From the NCBI RefSeq assembly GCF_014196515.1, contig NZ_JACIDV010000005.1, positions 124,001 to 188,000 of the forward strand: a DNA stretch of 64,000 bases. Reading direction: 5' to 3'. This stretch comes from Rhizobium skierniewicense. Lineage in GTDB: Bacteria > Pseudomonadota > Alphaproteobacteria > Rhizobiales > Rhizobiaceae. The notes under the pieces were generated by a model, which had not been told where the DNA came from, made no database searches, and saw only the letters and a list, made by a program, of their open reading frames with translations. The translations under genes were made by a program, and so were the position numbers. Below are positions 24,040-36,925 of this stretch, one piece after another (within the stretch, counting starts at the first letter, position 1; each line of letters begins with the position of its first letter).

Positions 24040-24198
24040 GTGCGATCCGCGGCGACCGATGGAGTTTTACGATCCTGGGTGCCTACAAACGTAGGTGGGC
24101 GCCATATGTCCAAGCCCACGGGCCTGGCCAGGGACAGCTCCCTTTGGATCGAGTATGGCCCCAGGGATTGAGTTTCCTGTCGAGAAGCGCAGAACGCA
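24040..24198 (-). ncRNA. ssrS: 6S RNA candidate
   Basis: About 159 nt downstream of zapA. Read on the minus strand, the 5' segment GCGTTCTGCG pairs with the 3' segment CGCGGATCGC (9 of 10 positions). Next, a CCCAGGGAT/ATCCTGGG stem (about 24073-24080 with 24160-24168 on the plus strand) closes a large central region. A GTAGG-CCTAC hairpin (24091-24104) sits within the apical part. A long rod with a central bubble is the 6S RNA shape that mimics an open promoter for RNA polymerase. A TATATA -10 element lies at 24204-24209 and a TTTT stretch (24035-24038 on the plus strand) follows the 3' end. The exact ends are estimates. Confidence 0.7.
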
Positions 24199-34198: not shown

Positions 34199-35473
34199 AT
34201 GAGCAGAAACCTTCTACCCGTATTCGCTCTTTTATCCAGCACCTTGTTTCTGTTTCTGGGCAACGGTCTTCAGGGCCTTCTTCTACCGGTCAGAGGATCG
34301 GCCGAAGGGTACTCCAACGAAGTGCTTGGTTTTCTCGGCACGTCGTGGGCCGCAGGCTTCGTTGTTGGTTGTTTCGTGGCGCCCGCCATCGTCCGGCGTG
34401 CCGGTCATATCAGAGCATTCGGCAGTTTCGTCGCCCTGATCTGCCTGACCATATTGCTGACCGGGCTCTTCATCGACGACGTGTCATGGGTCGCCCTGCG
34501 CGCGTTGACGGGTTTCTGCACCGCAGGCACCTCGATGATCATCGAGAGCTGGCTGAACGAGCGTGCCACCAATGAAAGCCGTGGGGCGATCTTCTCGCTC
34601 TACATTGCCATCACGCTGTTCGGGGTCGTCGCGGGTCAGTTGATCGTGCCGTTTGGCAATGTAAGCACCACGTCGCTCTTCATGGTCTGCGCCATCATCT
34701 ATTGCGTCGCCATTATGCCGGCCATGCTGTCAAAAGCCGAAAGTCCAAAACCGCTGAAAAAAGTCAAGCTGGATCTACCGGCGCTTTACCGAAACTCGCC
34801 GGTCTCCTTTATCGGCATTCTGCTCATCGGCATCGCCAATGGCGCCTACGGAACGCTGGGCGCGGTGTTTGGCGCGCGGGCGGGACTTGATGCGACGACC
34901 ATCGCCATCATGGTCAGCGTCACCATTTTCATCGGGGCGCTCGCGCAGTTCCCCGCAGGCAAGCTGTCCGACAGGATAGACCGGCGATATGTGCTGGCGG
35001 GTCTTTCCGGTGTGGCGGCACTCGCAGGTCTTGCGGTCACGATTGTCCAGCCCGGCCACGTCTATGTGCTGATCGGCATGATCGCAGTCTATGGCGCAAC
35101 TGCAAACGCGCTCTATCCCATCGCCGTAGCGCATGCCAACGACTACGCTTCATCGGAAGATTTTGTCAAAGTGTCGGGCGGGTTGCTGCTGCTCTACGGC
35201 ATCGGCACCATCATCGGCCCGACGCTGGGCGGCCCGATCATGACATCCTTTGGCCCCTATGCCCTGTTCTGGGTCACGGCCATCTCGCATCTCCTCATCA
35301 CGGCCTACGCCATGTTCAGATCCAGACAGCGTGCGGCGCTGCCAACAGAAGAGAAAGACAATTTCTCGACCACGGCCATGGCGCAGATTACACCGGAAAG
35401 CGTCTCGCTCGATCCGCGTGCACCGCAATACCCCGAGGATGAGGCAGAGTTGGAAAAAGGAGCTGGAATATGA
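34199..35473 (+). CDS. MFS transporter (YcaD-like)
   Basis: 424 residues, 12 predicted membrane segments in two halves with a basic central loop (KAESPKPLKKVKLD near residue 185). ARLDRR-type loop signatures occur in KLSDRIDRRYVLAGL. The N-terminus MSRNLLPVFALLSSTLFLFLGNGLQG and the GLEAA-like layout resemble the YcaD group of permeases; the substrate is unknown. The stop overlaps the next start (ATGA), so the DUF1192 gene is translationally coupled. Confidence 0.85.
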   Translation: MSRNLLPVFALLSSTLFLFLGNGLQGLLLPVRGSAEGYSNEVLGFLGTSWAAGFVVGCFVAPAIVRRAGHIRAFGSFVALICLTILLTGLFIDDVSWVALRALTGFCTAGTSMIIESWLNERATNESRGAIFSLYIAITLFGVVAGQLIVPFGNVSTTSLFMVCAIIYCVAIMPAMLSKAESPKPLKKVKLDLPALYRNSPVSFIGILLIGIANGAYGTLGAVFGARAGLDATTIAIMVSVTIFIGALAQFPAGKLSDRIDRRYVLAGLSGVAALAGLAVTIVQPGHVYVLIGMIAVYGATANALYPIAVAHANDYASSEDFVKVSGGLLLLYGIGTIIGPTLGGPIMTSFGPYALFWVTAISHLLITAYAMFRSRQRAALPTEEKDNFSTTAMAQITPESVSLDPRAPQYPEDEAELEKGAGI

Positions 35474-35673
35474 GCGTCTTCGATGATGAACCGTTGAAAC
35501 AGCAGGCCACGACTCACGTTATCGGTGGCGACCTTGCACTTTTATCCGTCGATGACCTGACCGCCCGCATCAATATTTTGCGAGACGAGATCAAACGTCT
35601 GGAGGTCGAGCGGGAAAAGAAGTCAGCCGGGAGAAAGGCAGCAGAAAGCCTGTTTCGATCCTCATCCCTTTAG
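35470..35673 (+). CDS. DUF1192 protein
   Basis: 67 residues, overlapping the MFS stop by 4 nt. It begins MSVFDDEP and carries LSVDDLTARINILRDEIKRLEVEREKK, a short coiled helix typical of DUF1192, followed by a basic Ser-rich tail. It is common next to rcdA in Rhizobiales. Function unknown. Confidence 0.85.
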   Translation: MSVFDDEPLKQQATTHVIGGDLALLSVDDLTARINILRDEIKRLEVEREKKSAGRKAAESLFRSSSL

Positions 35674-35719
35674 CAACGTTTTATTAACGTTACACAAAGG
35701 ATCAGATTTCCGTTTACCA

Positions 35720-35754
35720 TTAACGAAAAATTAAGCTTTTTAAGTGAATATTAT
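35720..35754 (+). promoter_or_regulatory. CtrA box and -10 element of the putative small RNA
   Basis: Perfect TTAA-N7-TTAA at 35720-35734, with another TTAA at 35740-35743, and TATTAT at 35749-35754. The second half of the box overlaps the -35 position relative to that -10. This is the layout of CtrA-activated promoters. The predicted start is near 35761. Confidence 0.55.
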
Positions 35755-35760
35755 ACATGT

Positions 35761-35859
35761 TCAGTCCTGCTGAACCTCAGGCAGTTTCTCCTATCGGCGA
35801 TTTGGTCTGATTTTTCTCCCTGTTTTACCTTGAGAGCCGCTTTTGCGGCTCTTTTTTTG
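35761..35859 (+). ncRNA. putative ~99-nt trans-acting small RNA upstream of rcdA
   Basis: No reading frame of note. The 5' hairpin CTGCTGA/TCAGGCAG (35767-35773/35777-35784, one bulge) is followed by an unpaired pyrimidine-rich stretch containing UUUCUCC twice (35785-35791 and 35813-35819), then a strong terminator stem. UUUCUCC can pair with GGAGAAA, so both copies are anti-Shine-Dalgarno-like. Hairpin, single-stranded seed and U-tailed terminator is the classical architecture of a trans-acting small RNA. Preceded by a CtrA box promoter. Confidence 0.55.
35832..35859 (+). terminator. rho-independent terminator of the putative small RNA
   Basis: AGAGCCGC (35833-35840), TTTT loop, GCGGCTCT (35845-35852), then seven T. 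Perfect 8-bp stem. It would also end read-through from the MFS-DUF1192 operon. Confidence 0.9.
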
Positions 35860-35890
35860 TCTCGCGTCACTATTACCAAAGCTGTGGGTA

Positions 35891-35905
35891 TTAACCTTTC
35901 TTTAA
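35891..35905 (+). promoter_or_regulatory. CtrA box upstream of rcdA
   Basis: Perfect TTAA-CCTTTCT-TTAA, 114 bp before the rcdA start and 55 bp before the EcfG-type element. It is the full CtrA consensus TTAA-N7-TTAA. Confidence 0.6.
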
Positions 35906-35959
35906 TAATCAGCTTGCGCATTTGCGTTATTGATATCATCCTGAAAATACAAAGAGGCC

Positions 35960-35984
35960 GGAACTATTAAGCCTCAGTCCCGTT
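35960..35984 (+). promoter_or_regulatory. EcfG-type (general stress) promoter of rcdA
   Basis: GGAAC at 35960-35964, exactly 16 nt, CGTT at 35981-35984, a perfect match to the alphaproteobacterial stress sigma consensus. The predicted start near 35991 leaves a ~28-nt leader. Confidence 0.65.
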
Positions 35985-36018
35985 GCCTTAGTATGGTGCG
36001 TAAGCAGGATTCGAAAAA

Positions 36019-36534
36019 ATGTCAGAACAGGTTTTGAATACCATAAGTTTTGCAGGCCGTGCTGCGGCATCCAACCAGTTTAAGTCTCTCTATTCTGAGG
36101 GAATGACTTTGGTGGAAGAAACGGCGACTTACCTGGACGGTTCCGGACGTGCCGCGTCCAAAGTATTGCCACGGATGGCTTCTGTTCTCTACGCGGCAGA
36201 GTCGATGCGACTGACCACACGCCTGATGCAGATGGCCTCTTGGCTTCTTCTCCAGCGCGCCGTCAACAATGGCGAAATGAGCCGGGATCAGGTTCTGAGC
36301 GAGAAGAACAAGGTTCGTCTCGATAACTTCAACGTTGATCGTAGCGCACCGGGCTGGGGCGACCTGCCTGAATCCTTCCGTGATCTGGTTGAGCGTTCCC
36401 TTCGTCTCCAGAATCGCGTTGCCCTGCTGGATCGTGAAATCTACCGTCCGTCTGAAGCCAACAAGGTTCCAGATAACGAGAACAGCGTTCAGGCACAGCT
36501 CAACCTGCTGCGGACCGCGTTTTCCGGCAACTAA
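36019..36534 (+). CDS. rcdA: RcdA (DUF1465), regulator of CtrA degradation
   Basis: 171 residues, all-helical DUF1465 family. In Caulobacter, RcdA is an adaptor in the hierarchy (with CpdR and PopA) that delivers CtrA to ClpXP at the pole. The sequence has FKSLYSEGMTLVEETATYLDG, AAESMRLTTRLMQMASWLLLQRAV and RNALLDREIYRP-like ends (LQNRVALLDREIYRP). The protein ends in a disordered tail. Upstream DNA carries a perfect CtrA box and a perfect EcfG-type promoter, so both its own target and stress may control it. Followed by a strong terminator. Confidence 0.9.
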   Translation: MSEQVLNTISFAGRAAASNQFKSLYSEGMTLVEETATYLDGSGRAASKVLPRMASVLYAAESMRLTTRLMQMASWLLLQRAVNNGEMSRDQVLSEKNKVRLDNFNVDRSAPGWGDLPESFRDLVERSLRLQNRVALLDREIYRPSEANKVPDNENSVQAQLNLLRTAFSGN

Positions 36535-36703: not shown

Positions 36704-36925
36704 TTAGAGGCCGAGGCCGCCAAAGCGCTTGTTGAACTTGGAAACGCGACCGCCACGGTCCATCAGCTGCTGGTTGCCGCCGGTCCATGCCGGGTGCGAC
36801 GTTGGATCGATTTCGAGGTTCATGACCTGACCCTCAGAACCCCATGTGGAGCGTGTTTCGTATTCTGTGCCATCAGTCATGACCACTTTGATCATGTGAT
36901 AGTCGGGATGAATTTCAGCCTTCAT
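36704..36925 (-). CDS. rpmE: 50S ribosomal protein L31, zinc-free type
   Basis: 73 residues. It begins [19 protein letters not shown] and ends [13 protein letters not shown], the L31 signature. There are no cysteines, so the CxxC zinc ribbon is absent (C- form). Single gene. Confidence 0.95.

Follow-up and report, generated by a model that had tools for sequence, protein, structure and literature searches.

Small RNAs of rhizobia and agrobacteria that were catalogued separately are the closest described relatives of the locus studied here. In Sinorhizobium meliloti, Sm84, identical with SmelC671, is a 100-nt RNA on the + strand at 2986421-2986520 (PMC2573895, PMC2873474, PMC7143759), located between SMc03988> and SMc03989> and conserved in Sm, Rl, Re and At. 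Valverde et al. (PMC2573895) predicted a sigma-70 promoter for sm84, and the promoter column of a 2020 review table (PMC7143759) carries no entry for Sm84/SmelC671. Reinkensmeier et al. (PMC3927594) named ReC71 of R. etli as a relative, described extensive microsynteny for the SmelC671 model, in the available text without naming the genes, and listed relatives in Rhizobiaceae, Brucellaceae, Phyllobacteriaceae, Bradyrhizobiaceae and Methylobacteriaceae, with Bradyrhizobiaceae counted elsewhere in the same text among the families partly lacking the SmelC291 and SmelC671 models. In A. tumefaciens C58, Lee et al. 2013 (PMC3738593, Table 4) reported C2_824767F, a 97-nt intergenic RNA at 824767-824863 of the linear chromosome, which the table gives without a function; it was detected by RNA-seq and by Northern blot as a band of ~100 nt, compared with a Northern signal of ~80 nt for Sm84 (PMC2573895). 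The RNA described below belongs to this already known, functionally blank family, whose microsynteny was reported earlier. In the accessible literature, we found no experiment on the promoter or function of the RNA, and no tie of it to CtrA or naming of rcdA as its partner, the latter a weak negative with supplements and most subscription papers outside its scope.

The window analysed here is a stretch of 64,000 nucleotides (64 kb) of Rhizobium skierniewicense. From its letters, an earlier note had proposed a CtrA-controlled, non-coding small RNA of ~99 nt immediately upstream of rcdA, starting near 35761 and ending at 35859 in an 8-bp stem and seven T. Ungapped alignment matched window 35743-35859 to 824748-824864 of the relative genome G006, which we take to be A. 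tumefaciens C58, and this places the C58 transcript at window 35762-35858, within one base of both proposed ends (Table 1). The perfect TTAA-N7-TTAA box that had been noted at the -35 position of TATTAT is likewise present. RPKM values of C2_824767F with and without TEX were 5276/595, 6043/1432, 2292/642 and 914/259 in four conditions (PMC3738593), that is, an enrichment of 3.5 to 8.9 times across the tabulated conditions, as for a primary transcript. RPKM was higher in rich medium than in AB medium or under induction (PMC3738593), an excess that is uninformative on the cell cycle.

Table 1 Features of the small RNA locus and its surroundings (window coordinates)
Feature	Position	Strand	Basis or remark
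DUF1192 gene, upstream of the RNA	35470..35673	+	profile match
CtrA-type box TTAACGAAAAATTAA	35720..35734	+	-42 to -28 relative to the mapped start, at the expected place of a -35 element
-10 element TATTAT	35749..35754	+	sequence; 7 bases from its end to the mapped 5' end
Small RNA, 97 nt, homologue of Sm84/SmelC671 and BjrC1505	35762..35858	+	C2_824767F mapping; model R1 match 35760-35858
Hairpin 1	35762..35772	+	fold; 3/5 pairs change on both sides
Hairpin 2 (UCAGGC...GUCUGA), containing the first, non-conserved UUUCUCC (35785-35791)	35777..35810	+	fold; no two-sided changes
Unpaired pyrimidine stretch with UCUCCCUGUUUUACCUU, probable seed	35811..35831	+	fold and conservation
Intrinsic terminator with seven T	35832..35858	+	stem 35832-35853, T run to 35858; 8 pairs
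Second TTAA-N7-TTAA box, rcdA promoter region	35891..35905	+	pattern scan of the window
CTTGCG, probable -35 of rcdA	35913..35918	+	sequence
rcdA (DUF1465, PF07323)	36019..36534	+	profile match, E 7.6e-60
rpmE (L31)	36704..36925	-	profile match
MFS transporter		+	gene content

The 99 nt were predicted to fold at -31.2 kcal/mol (z -4.6), which none of 200 shuffles equalled, and the 98 nt from the mapped start gave z -3.3, with 3 of 200 shuffles as good. Pairing in the three helices stood at 99.2% across 22 Agrobacterium-Rhizobium-Ensifer-type sequences, 21 of them distinct, compared with 28.5 to 44.1% when the helices were slid by 1-3 columns. Two-sided changes in the 21 distinct sequences affected three pairs of hairpin 1. 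No such change occurred in helix 2 and the terminator's 8 pairs were invariant, so that helices 2 and 3 are without covariation support.

The earlier note had also seen the heptamer UUUCUCC twice in an unpaired region, where it could block ribosome sites. Both copies are present (35785 and 35813) and the second is unpaired, but the first lies inside hairpin 2, which the note had missed along with the second box before rcdA; only for the second one would blocking be plausible. With 10 occurrences in the window vs 8.5 expected, the heptamer is unremarkable in frequency, and among 79 relatives two copies occurred in only 16, one in 60, none in 2 and three in 1. Doubling was rejected as a family feature on this count. 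Unlike the doubled heptamer, UCUCCCUGUUUUACCUU is the sole near-invariant seed-like element, and UCUCCCUGUUUUACCUUGAGAGCCGC is exact in 75 of the 79 named loci. Most copies from other families contain CUCCCUGUU; most of them carry GACGCCUCCC and a different hairpin 2, and the consensus prediction and one of two single folds place their CCUCCC in a small stem's loop.

Conservation of hairpin, seed and terminator reaches well beyond this strain. The RNA was found in all 39 genomes of the genus examined. A set of named loci was drawn from an RcdA alignment scan, from which the best 80 of 589 were retained, so that it leans toward near kin; 79 had enough upstream DNA (L143 ends at a contig edge), and all of these carry CCCTGTTTTACCTT upstream of rcdA. 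Model R1, built on the RNA part alone from 28 sequences, none from the window's own genus and 7 from other genera in its family, had a sole good match in the 64-kb window (E 9.6e-7; next best E 0.98) and recovered 22 of the 22 loci given from Agrobacterium, Rhizobium, Ensifer and kin at the expected place, with 34.6 to 48.1 bits. Across the order, RF02356 (BjrC1505) matched 166 of 199 genomes and PF07323 179. The window copy scored 37.6 bits (E 1.1e-5) against BjrC1505, under the Rfam gathering cut-off of 50, and is thus a homologue of BjrC1505 and not a member by the Rfam rule. The two share CUCCCUGUU and the terminator, the position upstream of rcdA recurs in 30 of the 30 best-scoring matches of the order, and synteny and profile support the link to distant copies. 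The BjrC1505 match spans window 35713-35858 and so begins 49 bases ahead of the 5' end mapped in C58; the model's first third may therefore represent promoter DNA, with the CtrA box in it.

The same RNA lies between the DUF1192 and DUF1465 genes in S. meliloti Ak57, with the sequence match seen in both Ak57 and 4H41; from the Ak57 gene order, SMc03988 and SMc03989 would be the DUF1192 gene and rcdA. The window RNA agrees with SmelC671/Sm84 in its position between DUF1192 and rcdA, its strand, and a ~100-nt transcript (in C58) with a typical terminator. A 6S RNA (RF00013, 79.9 bits) was also observed at window 24040-24198 (-), 11.6 kb upstream of the small RNA, and the pair recurs in Ak57. In S. 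meliloti the 6S RNA lies 14.2 kb upstream by 1021 coordinates vs 12.8 kb in Ak57, a discrepancy of ~1.3 kb.

The position immediately upstream of rcdA held far more widely than had been supposed, in 79 of 79 named loci and in 126 of 127 genome pairs of the order, a large group of bacteria from soil, plants and animals; in these 126 rcdA follows the RNA in the same orientation (125 of them within 600 bp; median gap 224), and in the one exception RNA and rcdA lie on different contigs. This count draws on 136 of the RF02356 matches listed and on 127 PF07323 matches listed for those genomes, nine genomes having no PF07323 place among the matches listed, and omits second matches per genome, G000, six genomes without PF07323, G113, G205 and G232. 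Those six genomes (G181, G210, G258, G077, G191 and G180; loci L162-L167) keep RF02356 above the cut-off, with no rcdA-like frame in the locus stretch and no PF07323 match genome-wide, and an L31 frame lies near the RNA in at least five of the six (L162-L164, L166, L167). A further genome with RF02356 but no PF07323 is G110. The RNA thus seems to persist where rcdA has gone. Class-wide, RF02356 matched 25 of 240 genomes, two of them within the order; among eight class-scan loci, rcdA adjoins five (L176, L177, L182, L183 and the in-order L180) and is absent beside three (L178, L179, L181). At L178 and L181, which are outside the order and without rcdA, the RNA adjoins frames that by eye resemble a quinone oxidoreductase and a Cys/Met-metabolism enzyme. 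The boxes of L178, L179 and L181 are perfect TTAA-N7-TTAA. One further match, L047, was rejected as a family copy, as it covers the terminator part alone and has no rcdA.

In the window, perfect TTAA-N7-TTAA occurs at two sites, the box of the RNA and the one before rcdA, where shuffles expect 0.12 and none of 100 gave two. Across the genome the perfect pattern has 38 sites and its reversed control 41, so the pattern by itself is not enriched and the weight of the box comes from its conservation. It is perfect in 55 of the 79 named loci, with one mismatch in 20 and two in 4, and perfect in 27 of 40 non-redundant ones. In 200 shuffles, which leave shared ancestry in place, perfect boxes averaged 0.5 (max 3), and boxes within one mismatch, frequent by chance, averaged 8.9 of 79 (max 16) against 75 observed. 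Of the 55 perfect boxes, 49 lie at one of the six most frequent distances (-99 to -93 from CCCTG). Spacings N4, N5, N6, N8, N9 and N11 gave no site in the 79 loci, N3 gave 10, N10 1, N12 13 and N13 1. A further 46 distinct places had a box with no mismatch (24) or one (22); single one-mismatch sites are weak here because the box was taken as the best site within the scanned stretch. These places came from 57 loci given, of which 49 were parsed (duplicates L044/L072, L045/L063 and L068/L168; unparsed L066, L073, L077, L079, L165, L166, L182 and L183); five are outside the order, and L042 has its box at an odd distance. In families f35 and f41 the box reads TTTAC-N6-TTAA. Between the RNA and rcdA, a perfect box is present in all 79 named loci, and the CTTGCG behind it recurs in many, not all, of the relatives printed. 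A terminator-like inverted repeat was also observed in the rcdA leader, at window 35982-35959 (-).

A scan of 35650-36050 for sigma-70-type promoters found none with 0.8 expected by chance, and as a sigma-70 promoter has been predicted for sm84 (PMC2573895), the missing -35 element is weak evidence. Pini et al. 2015 (PMC4433202) reported CtrA binding at the S. meliloti rcdA promoter by ChIP-seq and rcdA mRNA unchanged on CtrA depletion; Schluter et al. 2013 (PMC3616915) likewise listed an rcdA start with a CtrA motif upstream of it. Ahead of atu3742 (rcdA), PMC10469942 describes more than one start along with possible CtrA sites; its available text makes no mention of a small RNA there. The box at a nearly fixed place, together with the S. 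meliloti ChIP-seq, strongly suggests that CtrA would control the RNA, as the earlier note had it, and we infer that this control is activation. CtrA binding at the S. meliloti rcdA promoter and the unresponsive rcdA mRNA would be reconciled by a CtrA-driven small RNA there.

Targets were sought in 8 genomes of the family as start codons (ATG) with AACAGGGAG no more than 18 bases away (83 matches; 75 stretches read, with 5 places left out; 56 frames of at least 40 aa). Among the 56 readable frames, carD/cdnL was the sole orthologue group to recur in 7 of 8 genomes (none in G049), and its duplex ranged from -17.0 to -25.0 in the six genomes computed, where 49 window start regions had a mean of -10.0 and a best of -16.5; these values ignore accessibility and the background consists of mechanical ORF starts. 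The exact extended site was present in 39 of 101 relatives, including 36 of 39 genomes of the genus. But AACAGGGAG occurred in only 3 of the 30 best-scoring carD loci of the order, most others having CAGGAG, so that carD may just own a matching Shine-Dalgarno sequence, and it was rejected as an order-wide target. As the best predicted target it is a lead, and a tentative one, for the Agrobacterium-Rhizobium group. In the carD/cdnL leader (G000:C6:137664-137783, L210), AACAGGGAG is preceded in the seven genomes inspected by a long stretch that is rich in GC and probably structured. The one other seed-matched pair from two genomes consisted of two transporter-type binding-protein-like frames. 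The start region of rcdA gave -14.1, with 5 of the 49 window start regions stronger. A module acting back on ctrA, as the earlier note had envisaged, found no support from pairing in this genome: the ctrA start-region duplex was -10.1 here and -12.2 in C58, about the average of the 49, and ctrA was rejected as a target. In four other genera, computed with the window's core, ctrA reached -14.9 to -16.9 and could be a target there.

The constant same-strand position upstream of rcdA would also fit a cis leader, with a long rcdA mRNA cut short at the terminator to give the RNA and with read-through setting the RcdA level (attenuation); the TSS study (PMC10469942) gives several rcdA starts in all three agrobacterial lineages, the distal ones being regarded as secondary starts of rcdA. 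However, rcdA has its own perfect box in 79 of 79 loci, the best-conserved unpaired stretch is not part of the terminator, and a free ~100-nt band is seen in C58 (PMC3738593). The six loci that keep the RNA with neither an rcdA-like frame in the stretch nor PF07323 in the genome show that it is not merely an rcdA leader, and we consider attenuation improbable. A tiny reading frame in place of a non-coding RNA is practically negligible: 17 codons are open in the window from an ATG at 35757, but this ATG precedes the mapped start at 35762, and length changes within hairpins 1 and 2 and between them shift the frame across relatives, in line with the earlier statement that the RNA has no coding content.

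CtrA can also repress, and the box might do so, or serve rcdA at a distance, while another factor drives the RNA. The sigma-70 promoter predicted for sm84 (PMC2573895) and the S. meliloti ChIP text (PMC4433202), which does not separate the two boxes, agree with this, but the box overlaps the -35 position and, with a single mismatch, persists in all 4 of the 6 rcdA-less loci that were parsed (L162-L164, L167), which makes this reading unlikely. Somewhat less doubtful, though still only possible, is that the RNA acts on metabolism in general as an anti-Shine-Dalgarno RNA like AbcR/MmgR, with no cell-cycle role, and that its adjacency to rcdA is historical. The weak 3' similarity to suhB/mmgR (RF00519) and SorY, the retention of the RNA without rcdA and the pair of transporter-type frames point that way; against it, the scores of 25.7 bits (gathering score 41) and 19.4 bits both lie under the cut-offs, and the box is widely kept.

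We consider it quite likely that the RNA is a real, independently transcribed, trans-acting member of a known family under a CtrA-type box. Its established parts are the 97-nt transcript of a sister species, the conserved hairpin 1, the unpaired near-invariant UCUCCCUGUUUUACCUU, the terminator, the conserved box, the rcdA neighbourhood and the retention of the RNA in genomes where rcdA is not found. The CUCCCUGUU stretch would probably pair with Shine-Dalgarno regions, likely with the help of Hfq, and repress translation; with slightly less assurance, phosphorylated CtrA would bind the box and switch the RNA on in the CtrA-high phase; a possible target in the Agrobacterium-Rhizobium group would be carD/cdnL. 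A wider and speculative reading is an old arm of the CtrA regulon in Hyphomicrobiales and some neighbouring orders, in which paired boxes might fire both the RNA and rcdA, CtrA's proteolysis adaptor, and the RNA might tune growth by blocking the translation of carD/cdnL and others. If CtrA drives the RNA, a defined small RNA would be expected in CtrA-high cells across most of the order, and the unexplained CtrA ChIP peak at rcdA gains a candidate purpose.

EcpR1 (SmelC291), which the earlier note took as the natural comparison, is likewise a rhizobial small RNA of ~100 nt tied to the cell cycle, but it lies at a different locus beside divK-pleD/rpmG, has a GC-rich loop seed and is Hfq-independent, whereas the window RNA adjoins DUF1192 and rcdA. 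EcpR1, GspR and PmaR were ruled out as the identity of the RNA by their other loci. CcnA of Caulobacter, compared by description and not by sequence, is also a non-coding RNA presumed to be CtrA-activated; it differs in lying at the replication origin and acting on ctrA and gcrA. The text portion of the Hfq RIP-seq study (PMC4201532), tables aside, does not name the RNA. SorY matched 36 of 240 class genomes, none above the cut-off, its match in the window's own genome being another locus (G000:C19), and in some class genomes, G425 among them, SorY and RF02356 match at the same place. With AbcR1/MmgR (suhB group) and SorY, the window RNA has in common a CU-rich, anti-Shine-Dalgarno-like stretch before the terminator. 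Its own kin are the catalogued RNAs from which we started, and four such orphans come together here as a single family that shares a constant genomic partner and a CtrA-type box that is conserved.
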